From Pseudomonadales bacterium (lineage in GTDB: Bacteria; Pseudomonadota; Gammaproteobacteria; Pseudomonadales; Azotimanducaceae), in contig JAJDVW010000105.1 in assembly GCA_022825925.1 (NCBI GenBank), positions 26,624 through 90,623 of the forward strand: a stretch of 64,000 nucleotides of DNA, in the 5' to 3' direction. The stretch's first letter is position 1. Every line of letters begins with the position of its first letter. Positions 43,058 through 58,341 of the stretch are shown in pieces. Under the pieces are notes generated by a model. It was not told where the DNA came from. It did no database searches and saw nothing but the letters and a program-made list of their open reading frames with translations. Made by a program: the position numbers and the translations under genes.

Positions 43058-44296
43058 TCAGTCGAGTGGCACCCGGAGCCGCGACGGAGATGTGGCGTCG
43101 ACACGCACGCCGTCTCCACCGGCCCACTCCGCCAACCGGCGCAACCCGAGGCTGATCGCTCGCAGGAGATCGGCGTCTCGGGCGCTCGCGGAGCGCTCCA
43201 GCCACAGGTGCGGGACGATCAGCGTGCGCGCGGCCCGATCCATCCGCAGGTCCGCCCGCCCGACGAGCCGGTCGCCATGCAGGATGGGCATCACGTAGTA
43301 GCCCCATCGCCGTTCGGCCGCAGGCTTGTACACCTCCCAGACGTAGTCGAACCCGAACCACGTCGCGGCCCGGCTGCGCGCCGTGACGAACTCCAGCGGC
43401 GGCAGGAACGTGGCCTCGGTCAGCGTGTCCGCCCGTCGGGTGCGCCAGGCCCGGGGCACCGATCCCCGCTGCACGGCTTCCAGCTCCCCGGCCCGCTCCG
43501 CAGGCAGGTAATGCGCGGGCCCGTCACCGATCTGCGCCCGTACCGCCGCGCCTGACGTCAGCAGCTCGTCCAGCCTGCGACGTTCCGCGCCGGGATCCGA
43601 GCGGAGGCGGGCGAGGTGCCGGAACCGACGGGCCCACTCGCGGGCCGTCACCAGGCCCTGCAGCGCGAGCGCCTTGCGGGCGAAGAAGTCGTCCGCCTCG
43701 TCCGGCGTCGCCGCGTGCTGGAGCTCGACCGGTGCGACGTCACCGCGCAAGGCATAGAGCCGCTCGAATCCCCGGCGCCCGTACGTCATCAGCTCGCCGG
43801 TCAGCCAGAGATGTCGGAGGGCGCGGGCCGTGTCCTTGTCCGAGCGGAACCTCCCGCGACGATTCCGCCCGGCATAGTCCCGGTTCGCTACCGGCCCTCG
43901 GGACGAGATGTCTTCCCGGAGCGTCTCCAGAAGCTGCCCGTGCTCTGCTGCGAACGCGCGCTGCTTCTCCTCTGCCGCCCGACGCGCCATGGGGACCCGC
44001 CAGTACGGGAGCTCGCCCATGGGCAGCACGTACAGGGTCCCGCCGTAGTCGAAGAACTCGCGGCTCGTGTACAGCAGGTGGTCGAGATGCTCGGGGCGGT
44101 AGTCCCACACACGGGCATGCAGCGCGAGATCGTGACTCCGGCCGACCACGTTCAACGGGTCGATCTGGACCAGGCCCGACTGGTGCAGGGTCCTGCGGGC
44201 GCCGGCACGACCGGCCGACCGCCGCCCGGGCCAGAGTCCCTGACAGCCGAGGATGAACCGCCTGGCGGCTTGCGCGGAGACCGAGAGTGGGGTCAA
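43058..44296 (-). CDS. YcaQ-like winged-helix DNA-binding / DNA glycosylase family protein
   Basis: LVQIDPLNVVGRSHDLALHARVWDYRPEHLDHLL...; TTG start candidate. Confidence 0.82.
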   Translation of the reverse strand: MTPLSVSAQAARRFILGCQGLWPGRRSAGRAGARRTLHQSGLVQIDPLNVVGRSHDLALHARVWDYRPEHLDHLLYTSREFFDYGGTLYVLPMGELPYWRVPMARRAAEEKQRAFAAEHGQLLETLREDISSRGPVANRDYAGRNRRGRFRSDKDTARALRHLWLTGELMTYGRRGFERLYALRGDVAPVELQHAATPDEADDFFARKALALQGLVTAREWARRFRHLARLRSDPGAERRRLDELLTSGAAVRAQIGDGPAHYLPAERAGELEAVQRGSVPRAWRTRRADTLTEATFLPPLEFVTARSRAATWFGFDYVWEVYKPAAERRWGYYVMPILHGDRLVGRADLRMDRAARTLIVPHLWLERSASARDADLLRAISLGLRRLAEWAGGDGVRVDATSPSRLRVPLD

Positions 44297-45251: not shown

Positions 45252-45410
45252 ATGCTCATCCTGGACACCAATGTCGCCTCCGAACTCATGCGGCCATCGC
45301 CGGCTCCGAGTGTCGTCGCGTGGATTGCCGAGCGCGACGCTACAGCGATGCATCTGACCGCGATGAGCGAAGCGGAGTTGCGCTTCGGCGTCGCGGTCCT
45401 GCAGCGAGTG
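45252..45410 (+). pseudogene. Truncated FitB/VapC-type PIN toxin
   Basis: MLILDTNVASELMRPSPAPSVVAWIAERDATAMHLTAMSEAELRFGVAVLQ then homology ends. Confidence 0.88.
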
Positions 45411-45532
45411 GTCGAGATGCTCGGGGCGGCAGTCCCACACACGGGCGTGCAACGCGAGATCGTGGCTCCGGCCGACGACGTTCGACGGGTCGATCTGGAC
45501 CAGGCCCGACTGGTGCAGCCCTGCGGGCGCCG
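45410..45532 (-). repeat. Fragment duplicating part of the YcaQ-like gene (about 44073-44205)
   Basis: GTGGTCGAGATGCTCGGGGCGG...CAGGCCCGACTGGTGCAG near-identical to 44.1 kb. Confidence 0.88.
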
Positions 45533-46227: not shown

Positions 46228-46348
46228 TCCTCCGAGGATTGTCTATCCCGCCCGGTTCCGCACGAGTGCACTTCCACCCGAGCGTCTTCGGGGGTGGGCG
46301 GCGCGGCAGACTACCGAACAGGATTGCCCCGGGCGCGCCCTGTGTGGT

Positions 46349-46388
46349 GGTGGAGCCCGTCCACCGATACGGGGTTTTCGGCAGACTC
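46349..46388 (+). repeat. att-like repeat, copy 1
   Basis: GGTGGAGCCCGTCCACCGATACGGGGTTTTCGGCAGACTCT; matches 52331-52373. Confidence 0.7.
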
Positions 46389-46405
46389 TTGCCGCGCCTC
46401 GAAGG

Positions 46406-46484
46406 AGGCCCGCCGAGCAGTCATAGCAAATCGCAGGGCGGTCGCACAGGGACGCAACCCGCTCGCCGGAGGCGTGCCAACCTT
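46406..46484 (+). pseudogene. Integrase gene fragment
   Basis: ARRAVIANRRAVAQGRNPLAGGVPTF; about five mismatches to 52700-52778. Confidence 0.85.
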
Positions 46485-46719
46485 CCCGAAGACGGCATCT
46501 TTCCACGGGATCGCCACGGAGACCCTACCGCAACGCCCCGTCACTCGGACGCCCCGTCTCCGAAAACGCGACCTAGATGCCGAACGAGACCACTCTGCGA
46601 GCGCCCCCTCCGTCACTGGTAGCCGCCAGCTCTATACTGTATGTTCGATCAGTTCAAGGGTGGCTCACCCAGTGCCACGCCTTGGTCACACCGACCCAAC
46701 ATGCAGCGAGGCATTCGGA

Positions 46720-47631
46720 ATGGCCCGTAGAGTCAGCCCTTCACAGCTGCGCAGCCAACTGCGTCAAGCTCAAGCTAAACGCAAGCAGGCCATCGACAGG
46801 TACAACCAGGCGGTCAGGACCTATAACCAGAAGGTCAGGTCAGCCGTCAACCAATACAACGCCAAGGTCCGAGCGCACAACAGCCGAGTCCGCGCCAATC
46901 GCAGCCGTCTGCGCCAAGAACTCGACAAACTGGCACGCGCGGCGTCGAGACCCACACGGAGGACGACCCTTCGAACGTCCGTCGAGACCGTCCATCGCAC
47001 ATACGTGCGTCTCGAATCCGCGGCCGAGACGCGCCAATACGGCGACCACTACAACCAAATCCTCGACCTCTCTGAGCGAGAGGCAGCTAACAGCGCTAGC
47101 GTGATGAACGCCATATTGGGGAATCCGGAGCCCTCAGGCGGCGATGAGAATGTCCGGTCGACCACGCTAGATCCGATCCTGACATTGATCAGTGCCGACC
47201 TGCCCGACCGTTGGCACGGCGCACTTTTTTCCTTGAACCCCAACAATCCGGACGCTGCCCGCCACTTCTGCACCAGCGCGCGCGAGATTCTCACGCGCAT
47301 CCTCGACTCATGCGCGCCCAATCGCACCGTGTTGGCTGAGATGCCTGACTGCGACAAGGTGCGCGAGGGCACTCCCACTCGCAGATCGAAGATTCGCTTC
47401 TTCTTGCACCACGGCAACATGGCCGAAAAGCCCTTGGAGGACTTCGTCGAAGAGGACATGAAGAACGTCCTGCAGCTGTTCCGGGAGTTCAACGACGGCA
47501 CTCACGGCACCGCCGGTCGCTTCTCACTCGACCAACTCTCGGCGATCAAGACACGCGTAGAGGACGCTGTAGAGTTTCTGTGGAGCATCATCCCCAACGA
47601 CCTACGCGACCCGGCCAACCGAGGCGCCTGA
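46720..47631 (+). CDS. Probable pPIWI-associating nuclease-domain protein with N-terminal coiled coil
   Basis: QLRSQLRQAQAKRKQAIDRYNQAVRTYNQKVRSAVNQYNAKVRAHNSRVRANR coiled coil; LNPNNPDAARHFCTSAREILTRIL, FNDGTHGTAGRF motifs. Confidence 0.6.
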   Translation: MARRVSPSQLRSQLRQAQAKRKQAIDRYNQAVRTYNQKVRSAVNQYNAKVRAHNSRVRANRSRLRQELDKLARAASRPTRRTTLRTSVETVHRTYVRLESAAETRQYGDHYNQILDLSEREAANSASVMNAILGNPEPSGGDENVRSTTLDPILTLISADLPDRWHGALFSLNPNNPDAARHFCTSAREILTRILDSCAPNRTVLAEMPDCDKVREGTPTRRSKIRFFLHHGNMAEKPLEDFVEEDMKNVLQLFREFNDGTHGTAGRFSLDQLSAIKTRVEDAVEFLWSIIPNDLRDPANRGA

Positions 47632-48615: not shown

Positions 48616-49735
48616 CTACGGCGGCAGGCCCTTGTACACGTCTCCGCGTGAACCGAAACGCAGCAGCCGAATAACGCCCCGCGCTCCATCCGGCTCGTAC
48701 ACCAACCGGTCTTCGCCAACCCGATACCTCCAGAGCCGTCCGCCGTGCCCTTCGAGACGCCTGACCCCCGGGTTCCTCCGCGACGTGGGCGCTCGGCAGA
48801 TCTCCACGACGGCTCTGACGATCGTCCCGAAATCTCGTCTGCCACGGCTTTTGACGTCGGCGTAGAAACGCGACCCCATGTCGAAAACCCAGAGGCCCTT
48901 GCCCGCGTCAACACTGCTTCCCGAGGGACCAGGGAGCGCCCCGCGCAGGACCTCCTCGGCCTGGTGCGGCTGCCACACTTCCCGCGGATAGCCGCTCGGC
49001 GGCTCGGGGTTCGCGTGCAGCGAGCACGTCCCGATCCGACGACCTTCCCCCTCCAGCACGAAGAGCTCCTCCGCGTCCATCGACAGGAGTTGCTGGAACA
49101 CGCCGCCGAACGACGTCAGCGCGTATTCGCCCGCCGCAGCGGTGTCGAAGCAATGGATGACGCCCGCGTGGGTGCCGACCGTTTGCCAGTCGATCAGCCT
49201 TCTGTACGCCTCCATGGCCGTCAGGTCGACCACGCACGCGATCCCGTTTCGCTGCACGTAGCCGCACAGCATGTCGGTCAGCAGGGAGTCCGCCTGCCAG
49301 ATCTCCGCCACGTCCGGAGTCAAGGGGCAGCTATAGAGTTGTATCGGCTCACCTGCGAGCAGCATGCCGTACAGGCCGGACAACACCAAAGTCCGCCTCT
49401 CGGCCTTGCACCGCTGTCGGCTGTCGGCGTCCAACGTCAGGAAGAAACGCCCCCTGTACCTGTCGACCGCCGGCATGAACTCGACCCGCCGAGTGCCGCC
49501 GAAGTCGGGGCCCCGCGCCAGCGCCCGGTTGTGGGGATGGTCCGCCAGACGTACCCCTGCCAATCCGTGTCGCCGCCACCCTTCACCCATTCGCGCGCCG
49601 CGTTGCGGCGGTCTGACAGCACCTCGACCTGGTGTTGTTCCAGGCTCCCGAGGATCCCGCGCCGCCTTCGTAATCGGGGACGCCGCCCGCCGCCTTGGTC
49701 AGCGAACACGCGGTCACAAACAACGGCGCAGACAC
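48616..49735 (-). pseudogene. YaaA-like protein with C-terminal RelE/ParE-like domain; two apparent frameshifts
   Basis: VSAPLFVTACSLTKAAGG (frame P), ILGSLEQHQVEVLSDRRNAAREW (frame Q), LADHPHNRALARGPDFGG...VLSGLYGML...WRYRVGEDRLVYEPDGARGVIRLLRFGSRGDVYK (frame R). Confidence 0.6.
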
Positions 49736-49859
49736 GTCCTCGTGCAACCTTCAATACTTCAAAGCTCGGATCATGAGGGCCGGCCTGATCGGCCGCAAAC
49801 CGGGTTCGTCTCCGTTTCGGCGCCAGGGGACACCACCGACCGGAGCGAGCCATATGCTG

Positions 49860-50612
49860 CTAGGCGATGCGAGCGCCCTCTACTCGCCTCGCCACGACAT
49901 CGAGGAAAGACGGGGAGTAGCACTCGTCCACGTGCCGGTTGTTCCACAGGCCCGAACGCCGTACCGGTTCGCGGTCGCTGGAAGCCCCCAGCCAACCGGG
50001 CGACGCCGGATCCGCCGCCGGTTCGCGAGAGCTGCTCAGCAGAGCGATCGCGTTGCGCTCGACGAGACCGCGCTCGCTCGACGGGCCCGGCTCGTCGCCG
50101 ATGTCCAACCACAGAAACGGCATCCCGCCCACGTAACGGCTGACGCGCAACTCCAGGTCCGCTTCGGCTGACTTCACATCCGCGCGGTCGATGCCGAGCC
50201 GTCTCGCCGCAGCGCCGGCGTCGGCTCCGACGCCCCAGGACACGGGCAGCGGGGTGACGTCCTGGCGTGCAAGCGCCACCCCGACGAGCAGGCGGAAGAT
50301 CGATCCCCGATGGTTGCCGCCCCCGCCTTCCACGCCACGATGCTGCGACAGCCTTTGCCACAGCGTGCTCCGGCTTCCAGCGGCAAGCGCATGAGTTCCT
50401 ATGCGGACGACCCGCCGTCCTTCACCGGCCCCCGAACGCGGTTCGCCCGCTTCAAAGAAGAAGTACACGCCGCGCCGGGGCCAGTCCATTCGCCCGTTGC
50501 ACTCGCTCAGCCGGCGCACCCCTCCGACTCTCGCCTCGAGCCGCTCAAGCAGTCGATAGAACCGGGCGGTATCGGCGACTCTATCCACGCAGGCGCGCCC
50601 CGAGCCACGCAA
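49860..50612 (-). CDS. GIY-YIG-nuclease-like protein
   Basis: RRGVYFFFEAGE...RVVRIGTHALAAGSRSTLWQRLSQHRG resembles a GIY-YIG core. Confidence 0.55.
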   Translation of the reverse strand: MRGSGRACVDRVADTARFYRLLERLEARVGGVRRLSECNGRMDWPRRGVYFFFEAGEPRSGAGEGRRVVRIGTHALAAGSRSTLWQRLSQHRGVEGGGGNHRGSIFRLLVGVALARQDVTPLPVSWGVGADAGAAARRLGIDRADVKSAEADLELRVSRYVGGMPFLWLDIGDEPGPSSERGLVERNAIALLSSSREPAADPASPGWLGASSDREPVRRSGLWNNRHVDECYSPSFLDVVARRVEGARIA

Positions 50613-51324
50613 GCTGCCGTCCCTGGCTGAGCCCCCTCATCGGCACGTCGAGCGCGACGCCCCGGCTCCTCAACGCCGGCTCGAGGAACTCGCGATAACG
50701 TTCACCGGCGAGGAACACCACGGTGTCCGCATCGGCGAGGCACGGCTCAAGCGCCTCGAGCACGTTGCCTGCCCATGTGCTCCGCTCCACCTTCCGCATC
50801 GTGATCAGGGTCTTCTCGTAAGGCCGGACTACGTCCTCGGGATCGACGAGACCGTACTTGGCGGACAGGATGCGCCACGCGCCGCCTTCGCGTTCGACGT
50901 AGGCTCGCGCCTTCCGGAACCAGTCCGAGACATAGAGGTCCTTCGCCTTGGCAGGCTGCGGCAGCTTGGTCTTCACGCACGACACGAGGAACAGCCGCCG
51001 CCCAACGGCACTGGCGTCAACCGCCTCTGCGGAATCAACCCGGGAAGCCGCGGGTCCCGGCGGCTTCGCCGTGCGCAGTCGAGACTGTGCGGCGGTACCA
51101 GCGCGACGGGGGACCACGTTCCCGGCGCGCGGTTCCACTCGGTAGCGGAACAGCGTCGACGCCAATGCGCTGCACACCGCTGGAACGCGGCAAGTCAAAC
51201 CCAGGTTCCGGTGCACATCGCCGGCCCGAATGGTCACGGTTCGCTCCTGAGCCAGCCGCGCAGGCTCAACGTAATGGTCGAGTGCGTACCGCCGAATCCG
51301 CTCTGCCAGGGACGCCTCAGGCAT
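50581..51324 (-). CDS. DUF6884 domain protein with N-terminal extension
   Basis: RLFLVSCVKTKLPQPAKAKDLYVSDWFRKARAYVE...RILSAKYGLVDPEDVVRPYEKTL. Confidence 0.75.
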   Translation of the reverse strand: MPEASLAERIRRYALDHYVEPARLAQERTVTIRAGDVHRNLGLTCRVPAVCSALASTLFRYRVEPRAGNVVPRRAGTAAQSRLRTAKPPGPAASRVDSAEAVDASAVGRRLFLVSCVKTKLPQPAKAKDLYVSDWFRKARAYVEREGGAWRILSAKYGLVDPEDVVRPYEKTLITMRKVERSTWAGNVLEALEPCLADADTVVFLAGERYREFLEPALRSRGVALDVPMRGLSQGRQLAWLGARLRG

Positions 51325-51416
51325 GGCCAGCGTCCTCCCTCCTATCCCCAGGCGCCACCATCAATCCGCGCGACGACCGACCGACCGGAACCACGCCCAT
51401 TCTCTTACATGCAAAG

Positions 51417-52136
51417 TCAGATCCACCTGGGGCACACCTGGGTCAACGGACAGGGAACGCAGTCCGGTTCTGTGGCGTGGCACCATTGCTGCCCGATCCG
51501 CCACGCCGGCCAGTCCAGTTGGCCCGGGAACCCCGGATTCAGCCGCCGGCCAGCCCGAATCGCTTCGCTCGCGGAGTCGCCTTCCACGAGCCCGGCGCGA
51601 CGGAACACGCGCATGAGATGGACATCCGGCTTCACGTCTATCTGCCGCTCCTGCCCCCTGAAGCAGCCGAAGTCGTCCCGGAGGATCCGTGTCGCCATGG
51701 CAGCGATCCCGGCCCCGAGCCCATGAATCTCCTGCAGCGTCTTCTCCACCTCCGCCCGAGAAGCGTTGCTCCAGATGCCGTCAGCGGCTCCGCCGAACCG
51801 GTCGCAGACCAGGCGCGAAGCATCGGACACGGTTCTCGCGCCTGTCTTCGTGCCGTACCTCGGACGGACAGGCAAGCCGTCAGGCAATTCGATCAGTTCC
51901 GTTTCGCTCATGGATGCGAGCCGCGCGGGATCCAGACAGCCTGCGTGATCGATCTCTACCGGATTCCGCCATGCCTTCTGCCAGGGCATGCCCCGATCGA
52001 AAGCCACGGCGAGAAGGAACGCCAACGGGTTGCTTCGGACGAGGCGCTCCGTCTCCGGGTCCAACGCGCTCCAGTCGGAGACGCCTCGAGACTCGCCGAA
52101 TTCCTTGAGTCGCTCTACGACCGCCCTGGCTTCCAT
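51417..52136 (-). CDS. Endonuclease III-like HhH protein with C-terminal Fe-S cysteine loop
   Basis: IHGLGAGIAAMATRIL (HhH-like) and CHATEPDCVPCPLTQVC cysteine pattern. Confidence 0.65.
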   Translation of the reverse strand: MEARAVVERLKEFGESRGVSDWSALDPETERLVRSNPLAFLLAVAFDRGMPWQKAWRNPVEIDHAGCLDPARLASMSETELIELPDGLPVRPRYGTKTGARTVSDASRLVCDRFGGAADGIWSNASRAEVEKTLQEIHGLGAGIAAMATRILRDDFGCFRGQERQIDVKPDVHLMRVFRRAGLVEGDSASEAIRAGRRLNPGFPGQLDWPAWRIGQQWCHATEPDCVPCPLTQVCPRWI

Positions 52137-52330: not shown

Positions 52331-52375
52331 GGTGGAGGCGGCGTCCACCACTATGGGGTTTTCGGCAGATTCTCA
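52331..52375 (+). repeat. att-like repeat, copy 2, upstream of the intact integrase
   Basis: GGTGGAGGCGGCGTCCACCACTATGGGGTTTTCGGCAGATTCT. Confidence 0.7.
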
Positions 52376-52488
52376 ACGCCTCTCAAAGTTCACTTAACGT
52401 ACTGATAACTTACCTATTTTTCAATCTTGACGTTTCATACCGATTGGCTTAGGCTCACACAATAACTGATAACTCAAGTGATTACCCG

Positions 52489-53697
52489 ATGCGCCGACCC
52501 CAACGACTATCGGCCTCCTTCGTCAAGACTGTCAACGTCCCAGGCCGCTACGGCGACGGGCGTGGCGGCCACGGACTCTCCCTGCTCGTCAAGCCAATGC
52601 GTGCCGGCGGCTTTTCCAAGTCCTGGTCGCAAAGGCTACTCGTCAACGGCCGGCCAACCAACATCGGCCTGGGAGGCTACCCCATCGTAACGCTCGCCGA
52701 GGCCCGCCGAGCGGTCATAGCCAATCGCAGGGCGGTCGCACAGGGACGCGACCCGCGCGCCGGGGGCGTGCCAACCTTCGAAGAGGCAGCCGAAAAGGTG
52801 ATCGCCATGCACGAGCCGACCTGGAAGGACGGCGCGAGGTCCGCCGCCATCTGGCGATCGAGCCTGAGGGACTACGCCATGCCGCGCCTTGGCCGAAAGA
52901 CCGTCGACTCCATCACGACGGCTGACGTCATGGCCGTCCTCGTTCCGATCTGGAGCACGAAGCGCGAGACGGCGCGCAGAGTTCGCCAACGCATCGGCGC
53001 TGTCATGAAGTGGAGCGTCGCCCACCGGTACCGACAGGACAACCCTGCCGGGGATGCGATCGCCGAAGCACTCCCGCGCGACGGCACGTCCACAAAGATT
53101 CACCACCGCGCCCTGCCTCATGCCGAGGTCGGTGCCGCGGTCGCCAAAATTCGCGCTTCCGGGGCGTACCGCTCGACCGTTTTCGCTTTCGAGTTTCTAG
53201 TCCTCACCGCCTGTAGATCGGGCGAGGTCAGAGGCGCCCGGTGGGAGGAGGTCGACTTCGAATCTGCCACCTGGACCGTCCCCGCGTCCCGCATGAAGAT
53301 GGCACGCCCGCATCGCGTACCGCTCTCTGACCGCGCCATCCAGGTCCTCAAAAAGGCTCGGGAACTGTCCGCCGACCACGACCTCGTGTTCCCATCACCG
53401 ACCGGCCGCATACTGAGCGACAGCACAATCTCGAAACTTGTGCGGGAAAACGGCATTGGTTGTGTGCCCCACGGCATGAGGAGCTCTTTCCGCGACTGGG
53501 CCGCCGAGTGCTCAGATGCCCCGCGGGAAGTATGCGAGCTCGCTTTGGCTCACGTAAACAGCGACCGCGTCGAGGCCGCCTACCGGCGCTCGGACCTCTT
53601 CGAGAAGCGAAGAGAACTGATGGCCCAGTGGTCAGCCTATATCGGCCAAACGCGCGAGTTGACGTCAGTCCAGATCTCGGCCGTTTCAGCGAGTTGA
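52489..53697 (+). CDS. P4-type tyrosine integrase
   Basis: DUF4102-like N-terminus; CRSGEVRGARW, HGMRSSFRDWAAE, LAHVNSDRVEAAYRRSD. Confidence 0.93.
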   Translation: MRRPQRLSASFVKTVNVPGRYGDGRGGHGLSLLVKPMRAGGFSKSWSQRLLVNGRPTNIGLGGYPIVTLAEARRAVIANRRAVAQGRDPRAGGVPTFEEAAEKVIAMHEPTWKDGARSAAIWRSSLRDYAMPRLGRKTVDSITTADVMAVLVPIWSTKRETARRVRQRIGAVMKWSVAHRYRQDNPAGDAIAEALPRDGTSTKIHHRALPHAEVGAAVAKIRASGAYRSTVFAFEFLVLTACRSGEVRGARWEEVDFESATWTVPASRMKMARPHRVPLSDRAIQVLKKARELSADHDLVFPSPTGRILSDSTISKLVRENGIGCVPHGMRSSFRDWAAECSDAPREVCELALAHVNSDRVEAAYRRSDLFEKRRELMAQWSAYIGQTRELTSVQISAVSAS

Positions 53698-53737: not shown

Positions 53738-56700
53738 TCACCGCTCCGCTCCGCCGACGGACTCAGCGCCATCCCCCAAGCCTTCGCTACTCTCTGCCAC
53801 CATGCGCCACGACTCACCGCAGAGTATCCACTTGCCGGCGAGTCGGACGGGGTTTTCTATGGGTAGTACTCGGTGTCGCCCCTCGTCCGTTTTCTCCACC
53901 ACGTACAGATACCACGAGTTCTCCGTCTCAAAAGCCTTCCGGATCTGAGCACCACTAAGTTCCACGACCTCGTCGCCGTTCCAGGGCCGCCCTCTACCCT
54001 TGACCTCGATGAGCCGGACCTCCTGCGTCTTGGGATCAGTGCTACGAATGTCCCAGCCAGCCTGATGCGGATCGCCAAGTTCCGGCTCGCGTCCGGCCTC
54101 TATCTCGTACTGCGCCGCGGCCTCTCGATACTCCTCGTCACCCAATAGTCTGACCTCGTCGCCGTCGCCGTTGCCTTCGTCGGTCATCGTGTCTTCACCC
54201 GTGTCGTCCTCGGCCGGGTCCGGCACGATCTCTCCTTTGAGCGACCCCCGTAACTCGCGCACGAGAGCTTTCTGCTTTGCCAAGGCTCTGTCCTTGCTAT
54301 ACGACCCGCCCAGCGACCCTGCGTCCTCTGATCCTGACTCCTCGCCACCTCCATCGTTGATCTCGTCCGAAAGTTCGCCTCCCGACGTGGGTGAATCAGT
54401 GTCGCCACCACCCCCGGATGTCGATCCTCCGCCGCGTTGCACATCGCCTCGCGTTCCCGCATAGATATCCTGCGGCCTCTCATTGCCCTCATCCGCCACA
54501 CTTTCGAATCCCGCGCTTCCATCAGCAGCCGCGCCCGGTTCTGGTGCGCCCGGCCAGACCAGCGCTGGCGCGTGTGAACGACGGAACTTCTCCGCTGCCA
54601 GGAAGAAATCGCCATTGCCGATCGCCGTGAGCATCCCCGTGAGATCGGCCGCGAGCCCCGCGCGTTGCCCAAAGGAGAAGTCCCTTAGCAACTCCTTCGC
54701 CGCGTCCGCACCGAATTGAAGCGGCGCGCCCGGCAAGCGTCAGCGAACCCGCGTGCAGACGAGCGTTAACTGGTACCACTTCCACCGGGGCATCCCCGAT
54801 ACCGACACTCAAATGAAGCTCACCCACGTGCACCAAATCTGGTCTCGACTGCGCCAAGACACGCGGATTCTCACTGTCTTCGTCCGTCGACTCGCCTCCC
54901 CGGACACCTCGGACGAGCTGGTAGACCAGGTCGAATCTGGACTCCCATTCCGCAGGAACCTGCACGGGCTCGTCACCTCGCCAGTCCATCGTGATGCACG
55001 ACGAAAGTGTCCGCAGCCCGATCGACTCGGCCACGCGAAGTTGCTCCACCAGCGAGCGGCCCAAATGGCCCCCGGTAACCGTGCGGAACTCGCCTTGCCT
55101 CGGAAGAAATCGCCGATCGTCGATGTCGTCCAGATAGACATCCGTCGTGTCCGCCAAGTGGAGCCATTCCCTGTCGGCGAAAACCATCGCCTGAGGTAGG
55201 CCAGACTGCCACCGCTCAAGAAGCCGATGATCGGTCGCGCTATCGTCCAGACAGTACGCATAGGCGGTCGGGAGCACATCACGGACCTCGTTCGCCAAAC
55301 CCTCAGGCGAACTCCTGGCACGACCCCAAACGTCGAATATGTAGTCCAGCGCTTGGCTACCTGTTGTCGTCTCGGGAATCTCCCACGGGAAATCCGGATG
55401 CGTCAGTTCCGCCCGGAGCGCCTCCTCTATCCGGTCCAACGGGACAACCCAGCCACCGAGTGCGCCGCGAAGACGCCCCCCTGACCGCTTGACGAGCCGG
55501 TCGAGTCTGACTCGCCGATTGTCCAGCGTCGGTAGGGCCAAACGACTCAACACCCCCTTGAGCAACTCGCCGTCCGTCGCCGTCGCGATCTCTTCACGGC
55601 ACTCGGCAAGGAGGCCCGAGAGCTCCGACGAGTCGAGATGGGATCCGGTCTTGGCCAGCCTGTGGAGCGATTTCGCTTCGGGGATTTCGACCCCGAATCT
55701 CACACCTTCCTGATCCAGCATGGAGACAAGCTCGGCGGATAGTGTCGCGAACGGCGCGTCCTCACGTGCCGCATCGAATCCCGGGAGAGCTTCTTGCGGC
55801 AATCTGAGTTCACGGTCATCGCAAGGCACCCACGCGAGCTGAGACAGCCGCCTCACCCAGGCGCTAGAGAGGTTTCCTCGTCGCTCAAAGCGTGAGTAGT
55901 ACGAGTACCTCGCCTCCCGCCTGCCTTTGCCCTTTAGTCTCCTGAAACCGTCTTCGAGCCACGCCGCCATGGCCGATCGAAGCTCTCTGGGAGCATCAGG
56001 GTCGGGCAATGGTGGTTCGATGTCGTAATCAAGCAGCGTGTACCCGCTGTCGTTGGACTCTGGAATGTCGCTCGCGTCATCCCCCAGGAACGACGCGACA
56101 ACCTCGCGCTCCCATCGGCCCGCTGTCGCCACGATGCTCTTCACCACCACGCCACCTTTGGCGCCGGCGCTCTCGAAGAACATGCGCCACTCGTGGGAGC
56201 TGGCCCCCTTTGGATCCGTTTCCACATAGGACGGCGTGATCCCCGACGAGTCCGGCCAGATACGACGGAGATCTTGGCCATGCCCGACATACGGATCCGC
56301 GACTAGCGAGTCTCCAACAGGAACACCAAACTCCTCACCTTCCGACCGAACCAGAACGCGATACAACAAATCGGGCCGATTTCGGTGTTTCGCCCATTGC
56401 CCGAACGGAACGAGTAAGGACCAGTCGGGTTCCACCTGCGAGTCCAAATCCCCTAGTGCAGCCTCCGCGACGTCTCGAAGGCCTACGCTATTGGCGTGTT
56501 CTTCGATCCAAGCCCAAGCCCGCCGCGTGTACCCCTGGGTCCGACTCTCGCGACCTCCGTTGGCGAAGCGAAGCGACCCACTCAGTATCCAAGCGATTTC
56601 TATCAGCGACGAACGGTTTGATTAGGCGGCGAGCCGCTGTCCCGCCTGGCTCACCTTCCGCGGGAAGCGCGTCGCTCAGAAAAGTTGCTCGTCGAACAGC

Positions 56701-58341
56701 AACCCACTCTCCCGCCACCGAACGAACGCACCGCAAATCCAGGTCTCCCCAGTCGTCGTTCGAAGACAGCTCCGCGACAGCGGCCCACAGGCGAAAGAGT
56801 TGCTGTCTCCGGTGTACCGATTCTCCAGCGAGCGCCCGCCACCAATCCTCAAGTCCGTCTTTCCAAATCTCTTCCAGTTCCCCCGGCGACATCTCGCCGA
56901 GAAGCCCAATGTCTCGTAGAAGTCCAGCCGCCCCGCGTCCCAGCACGTCGTCCATGAGCACGCGCCCCTTTAGGAGCATTGCTGGCCGCAAGTCCGGTTG
57001 CTGGTCAAACGCGCGCGCCATTGGGGGAGGCGGGACAAGCGTCTCCCTCCCCGAGGCATACGCCACCGTATTCGCCGTGTCCGCCCAAACGGGTATCACC
57101 GCGGCCTCGCCGATCCGTTCACGCAACGTCGACCGCCATTCCTCCTCTACGAGAAGTGACTCGAGACCGCCGGCCTCCGCCGAGGGTCGGGCAAGGACCT
57201 TGAACACCGCCCGCGCTGCAGCCGGGTCTCGATGAGTGTCCGCAGACCATCGGAGCACCAGCGCGAGAACGCCCGCCATCTCCCTTGCGATACCTCGTTG
57301 CCACGGATTGTCCTCGATCTCCCGGAGACCATTCCGCGAGATGTTCAATAGCCAGTCAGCGTTGATGTGTAGACCGAACGGCAGCGTCACTTCGGTAGGC
57401 AACGTCGCGTAGACGCGTCCTCTCCTCGGTGGCTCGGGCATCCCCTCGTTATCGAGGGGTAGCACCCCGAGTACCCGACGAGCCCTGGTTGCCTCAGCGT
57501 AGACCTGCGCTCGGTCCTCTCGCGCGGGCTTGATCTTGCGGTGTTCGAGAAAGCAGGCGATCGCCGCCTTCGAAGGCTCGAATTCCGCCTCGAAGACGCG
57601 CCAGAGCAGGTTCTCATCGTCCGAAAGCGCGGCAACCTCGTAGTTGCCCTCGCTCTCCCTTACGGCGCCCAACTCCCAGATCTGGCGGTTGATCTGAAGC
57701 CTCTCCAAGCCGGACATCGCCAGGATGGCTAACGGAGCGCGGTCTTCGTCGGGTAGCAGGTGCGATATGTCTGATGCTAGTGCCTTGTCTTCCTCTGTTC
57801 GTCGCCGCAACTCGAACCGTGTCGTATAGCCGTGGCCTGGTGGCGCGATCGCCTCATCCCACATCGGAACTACCGCGCCGAGGAACTGTCGCTGTACGTC
57901 TCCGTATTCTTCGCCCTTCTCTTGAGCTATCTCGTACCTGAATTTCCAGTCCCAGCCCGAGACTCTAGCCTCTTGAAAACGCATGAAGACGCTCTTGAAG
58001 CCGATTCCCATGAACCCGACGGAACGCGCTCCCTTCGTTGAGCGAAATACCTTCGAGAGCCCTTCAACATCCTTCTCCTCCAGTGACCGCATTCCGTTGT
58101 GTTGAAACACCAATACGTCCCCAGCCTCTACGACCTGAACGGAAATCGAGTTTGCTCCTGCGTCGAGGGCGTTCTGGACCAGCTCGAAGAGATATACCCA
58201 CCGGCCGTCGAAACTCAGCTCAATCACGTTCAGCAGCCCGAGCCCATCTGGTGACCCGTAGAAGGCGCGGTTCTCTTCGCTCAACTTTGCTATGAACGCC
58301 TGTCGGCTCTCCCTGGTTGTGTCCACTAGGCTCTTTCCCAC
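53738..58341 (-). pseudogene. NO VEIN/sacsin-like ATPase with C-terminal DUF3883 (PD-(D/E)xK-like) domain, split by two frameshifts
   Basis: ORFs 56488-58341 (ELVQNALDAGANSI...GFMGIGFKSVF), 54522-56447 and 53738-54736 (GWDIRSTDPKTQEVRLIEVKG) join into one protein. Confidence 0.75.

Follow-up and report, generated by a model that had tools for sequence, protein, structure and literature searches.

Excision of modified bases from phage DNA can protect bacterial cells, as the glycosylase defenses Brig1 and Brig3 demonstrate (PMC11078745, PMC13160076); according to their authors, both probably originated from uracil DNA glycosylases (PMC13160076). DpdC, a DUF6884-type protein with the YaaA fold, serves in the Dpd DNA-modification defense, where it is described as catalyzing an amidohydrolase step of the 7-deazaguanine DNA pathway (PMC6884629). 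Another DUF6884 protein, YfjM of Bacillus, has been reported to be among the proteins that interact with abasic and RNA-base lesions (PMC11701544). Neither YaaA nor YfjM is known to have a nuclease partner. The described system closest to the locus analyzed here is PDC-M57, a phage defense candidate in PADLOC-DB 2.0 with the two models M57A and M57B. The PADLOC PDCs come from a guilt-by-embedding approach and are mostly unvalidated (PMC12988326), and our literature search found no paper that names PDC-M57.

Here we analyze a cassette of four genes, A through D, in a 64,000-nucleotide stretch of DNA from a Pseudomonadales bacterium (the whole stretch is referred to as the window). An earlier note on this DNA had described the cassette as uncharacterized and had inferred a restriction system of the base-excision kind. 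Genes B and C are in fact the PADLOC candidate PDC-M57, so the set is not wholly uncharacterized; what is new is the joining of a predicted glycosylase to this already catalogued pair. Our tentative proposal is that PDC-M57 is an anti-phage module in which a YaaA-fold DNA reader works with a nuclease, and that the cassette represents a decayed version of it equipped with a glycosylase, gene A, which would excise modified bases.

RESULTS

Layout of the cassette and its surroundings

ORF calling places the four genes on the minus strand in the order A-B-C-D. Gene A (51417..52136) encodes an HhH-GPD (endonuclease III-like) protein of 239 aa; gene B (50581..51324), a DUF6884 protein; gene C (49860..50612), a probable GIY-YIG-type nuclease; and the main ORF of gene D (48616..49590), a YaaA-like domain with a RelE/ParE-like C-terminal domain, the 5' end of this gene being broken. 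The overlap between B and C is exactly 32 bp; a gap of 92 bp separates A from B, and approximately 270 bp lie between C and the D ORF. On the plus strand, a tyrosine integrase gene (52489..53697, from Pfam) and a gene for a pPIWI-associating nuclease domain protein (46294..47631, Pfam PF18165, E = 8.7e-45) provide context and lie outside the module. The arrangement, including the overlap and the two flanking genes, is just as the earlier note had given it.

Further context is provided by the sacsin/NO VEIN-type (TmtA-like) gene or genes at 53738..58341 on the minus strand, with matches to the NCBIfam sacsin domain (1.5e-16), PADLOC TmtA (2.4e-26), and NOV_C (1.8e-11). Split over three ORFs, this is probably another decayed defense gene. 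An integrase fragment and its upstream DNA are duplicated ahead of the pPIWI-associated nuclease gene, at 79-94% identity (46358-46485 versus 52342-52388 and 52699-52779, with approximately 310 bp missing), which suggests a second, decayed integration. Outside the cassette, a direct repeat of 117 nt with 93% identity occupies 44072-44188 and 45402-45518, 1330 bp apart. No Rfam families were found between 44 and 60 kb.

Genes B and C are PDC-M57

The product of gene B matches Pfam DUF6884 (1.8e-48) and PADLOC PDC-M57A (PDLC04712, 1.9e-39), and that of gene C matches PDC-M57B (PDLC04714, 1.3e-83). PADLOC has no glycosylase or YaaA-like/RelE model that matches A and D. The statement that no named defense system has this gene set thus holds for the four genes together but not for B-C.

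B carries CxxxK at residue 116 and LSAxxG at residue 153, motifs that it has in common with YaaA and YfjM. Relative to its homologs, the window copy has a 66-bp in-frame deletion in an N-terminal extra domain, as seen both in the alignment of relatives and in a DNA alignment to locus L009 (OX638346.1, genome G005). This N-terminal domain is also found C-terminally in a Swt1-type HEPN protein and in an ORF judged NYN-like by eye (carriers at L115:976-1746 and L116:1480-2799), and it appears to be a small domain common to nuclease-type proteins. DUF6884 itself is common without C. We rejected it as a constant marker of the system, as only two of about 60 viral loci with DUF6884 also have C. Viral contigs of the IMG/VR set (L130-L189) frequently carry DUF6884 genes in the absence of C, and the source genome has a lone DUF6884 gene, also with no C (L127:3512-3988, contig C107).

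Gene C has no Pfam family. Its AlphaFold2 model (pLDDT 86) begins with a strand at 48-58 (GVYFF), a strand at 66-74 (VRIGT), and a helix at 84-92 (R87 and H91), followed further on by a strand at 165-170 and a helix at 180-192 (E185). Among 29 relatives of C, residues G48, Y50, R70, G72, R87, H91, E185, and N224 are unsubstituted wherever aligned. The strand-strand-helix...strand-helix order, together with a Y/R/H/E/N residue set, is the pattern of GIY-YIG enzymes. In this respect, the order of structural elements and Y50, R87, H91, E185, and N224 fit the prior description of C as GIY-YIG-like. Other comparisons did not bear it out: a Foldseek search of the model against PDB and BFVD returned chance matches only, hhalign probabilities stayed below 2% against the GIY-YIG domains of UvrC and of short GIY-YIG proteins, and the classical YIG reads RIG or RVG throughout the C family, its second Tyr being Arg. 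From Pfam comes a single hint: two of the 29 relatives match GIY_YIG_2, with values of 0.023 and 0.081. PF20815 sequences, sought for comparison with C, yielded one weak match in 38 relatives and none in 200 genomes of the phylum. Taking sequence and model together, we regard C as a likely, if unproven, nuclease of the GIY-YIG type.

Partners of gene C

Relatives of C were collected from genomes, plasmids, and viral contigs; no phage-collection record had C. A hand count that omits duplicates and a single locus truncated by the end of its contig gives 30 readable C loci, the window included. At 24 of these, a DUF6884/YaaA-like gene is adjacent or fused to C, and at two more, both on haloarchaeal plasmids, such a partner lies about 2 kb away; no DUF6884/YaaA-like partner was found at the other four. 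Since a related genome has no more than about one or two YaaA/DUF6884 genes in total, this adjacency far exceeds what chance would give.

Three kinds of partner can be distinguished: DUF6884 at most loci, a second, DUF6884-like kind downstream of C (L016 and L062), and a YaaA-like kind (L019, L025, and L068). This division, with D belonging to one of the three, is new here. Some of the YaaA-superfamily partners of M57B match M57A weakly. Moreover, there are two independent fusions, DUF6884-C in L066 and YaaA-like-C in L068. With a YaaA/DUF6884-superfamily partner at 24 of the 30 loci, the module reads as a YaaA-fold DNA reader plus nuclease, to which the glycosylase is a rare add-on.

On the two haloarchaeal plasmids (L029 and L030), the C relative is followed by DUF6610 and then, about 2 kb downstream, by the DUF6884-type gene; DUF6610 may be part of an archaeal version. 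The source genome has a second PDC-M57 pair (L023, contig C154:22000-40000), in which C is split across frames and which lies beside an AriA/OLD-like ATPase gene. C copies split across frames also occur in G002, G003, and other genomes.

Gene A is a predicted accessory glycosylase

By its sequence, gene A encodes a member of the Fe-S HhH-GPD/endonuclease III superfamily. It matches TIGR03252 (HhH-GPD) at 8.1e-13, which is under that model's own cut-off, and endonuclease III structures at E = 0.0013 with a three-sequence profile. The cysteine loop reported in the earlier note is present with exactly the C-X6-C-X2-C-X5-C spacing of endonuclease III (CHATEPDCVPCPLTQVC), and the HhH motif (GLGAG) and catalytic Asp171 align with those of Nth. 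A differs from Nth in having insertions. In an alignment with Nth-type proteins, it has Gly or Ile at the position of the lyase Lys, unlike the bifunctional endonuclease III proper. Retention of the catalytic Asp and replacement of the lyase Lys predict a monofunctional glycosylase with no lyase activity. An AlphaFold2 model of A, built from three sequences, reached a pLDDT of 43 and was not used.

Outside the window, full-length A was found in two other genomes only (L009 and L011); class-wide, the A profile matches only Nth-type proteins, aligned mostly at the C-terminal end. In all three cases, full-length A is directly upstream of B-C, in the same strand and order, although the genomes with A may be closely related and the three cases a single inheritance event, which would weaken the association. 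A genome of the same genus, G004, has a decayed A remnant with no B-C nearby.

A possible but doubtful reading is that A is a mere neighbor in a defense island and that B-C is the unit, directly sensing a base that is modified or damaged, so that excision would play no part. Indeed, most B-C loci lack A within their flanks, L009 is an island with other defense genes, and A and B are separated whereas B and C overlap. However, the confinement of full-length A to the position directly upstream of B-C argues against a chance neighbor, as does the difference further upstream between two of the three A-bearing loci, with McrBC in L009 and a TonB receptor gene in L011. The absence of A from most M57 loci does mean that A is accessory and that B-C must work without it. 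Base excision, which the earlier note had placed at the center of the system, is thus not the core activity of the family.

Gene D is broken and probably belongs with C

Gene D matches Pfam YaaA at 3.1e-7, just above the cut-off. Its tail matches Pfam ParE at 0.0012 (19.8 bits, below the cut-off of 23), the RelE-like structure 2khe at 0.007, and stand-alone RelE/ParE-type genomic ORFs at up to 8.4e-8. The designation of D as YaaA-like can therefore be retained, while that of its tail as RelE-like draws on the genomic ORFs and falls short of the ParE model. D is 35% identical to the YaaA-like half of the L068 fusion (5.7e-14) and also matches L025 (8e-7), which indicates that D probably belongs with C and is not a chance neighbor; elsewhere, relatives of D are located beside C or fused to it.

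A tblastn search with L068 located the CxxxK N-terminus of D at 49682..49747 on the minus strand, in a frame other than that of the main ORF. The match is collinear and in the right place, with an E value of only 0.68 taken alone. With its CxxxK N-terminus in another frame, D is broken, in agreement with the frameshift suspected earlier. Whole D, as a YaaA-RelE fusion, was found nowhere else among 58 relatives, 274 genomes of the class, plasmids, and viral contigs, in which only its halves have matches. As to co-occurrence of the four families, what recurs is B-C, across bacteria, and A upstream of B-C; A at most loci and whole D at other loci do not.

A and C of the window keep all predicted catalytic residues. 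In contrast, the N-terminal loss in B and the frameshift in D mean that this cassette may be impaired. These two lesions and the split C copies may represent decay or assembly error, and the data fit both. The cassette is probably partly decayed and aimed at phages.

Genomic setting of relatives

Several C loci lie among genes of defense against modified DNA, which supports the earlier reading. In L009, McrC and a McrB-like AAA gene lie upstream, and downstream there is a methyltransferase-like gene; SspC, SspD, and a MzaB-like gene are near C in L014, HmaC in L015, and a type I methyltransferase in L068. An AAA gene and a Schlafen-type gene are nearby in L010. Not every C locus is an island, however, as the scanned neighbors in L012 are metabolic.

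DISCUSSION

Modified-DNA restriction is the best reading of this cassette, and base excision by A is plausible. In the mechanism that we propose, B, and once also D, would bind DNA and flip out or read an abnormal nucleotide, either a modified base or an abasic site, and B or D would bring C to cut at that nucleotide. Support for the reader role assigned to B comes from the report of YfjM among lesion interactors (PMC11701544). In the three A-bearing genomes, A would excise modified bases of invading DNA, leaving abasic sites for B and C to act on, such that A would widen the target range. We infer this excision step, with Brig1 and Brig3 showing the principle. If the proposal for A holds, all three would share base excision of modified phage DNA; A differs from Brig1 and Brig3 in being an HhH-GPD Fe-S protein and in occurring together with the proposed reader B and the probable nuclease C. 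A more specific scheme, in which the Fe-S HhH-GPD glycosylase strips modified phage bases, the DUF6884/YaaA fold reads the abasic site, and the GIY-YIG protein cuts, with M57 as a general YaaA-reader-nuclease defense, we consider unlikely.

The likeness of B to DpdC raises the question of a modification-restriction pair, in which B (and D) would alter a host base in the manner of DpdC and C would cut unmarked DNA. B and the partners in L016 and L062 do match DpdC models weakly, only in part in the case of B; the Cys of CxxxK is conserved, and DpdC works in DNA base chemistry. However, the substrate of DpdC is a base already modified, and proteins of the YaaA family have been described as binding DNA. 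Moreover, no genes of a queuosine-type co-substrate pathway were seen among the scanned neighbors, and the protein scan of the window cassette and the genes around it showed no other Dpd protein. We judge such a pair to be quite improbable. Least probable of all is a mobile cassette that repairs abasic or oxidized DNA lesions and has no role in defense: an endonuclease III-like glycosylase, a relative of a lesion-binding DUF6884 protein, and a probable nuclease would make a full excision set, but the neighbors are restriction, Ssp, Hma, and pPIWI-associated genes and an integrase, the occurrence is patchy (2 of 399 genomes of the phylum, the source genome included), and B-C is listed by PADLOC as a defense candidate.

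PDC-M57 has so far been a catalogue entry without a mechanism, and the present survey supplies one that can be tested, in which its two genes appear to encode a YaaA-fold DNA reader and a nuclease. The reader of PDC-M57 is exchangeable, coming from any of three YaaA-type families, and is sometimes fused to the nuclease; a few loci have a predicted base-excision enzyme in addition. If the proposal is true, the poorly understood YaaA/DUF6884 fold would gain a function in immunity, and the system would constitute a defense that couples an HhH-GPD glycosylase to a dedicated nuclease. The addition of the glycosylase could mean that the system attacks chemically modified phage DNA.
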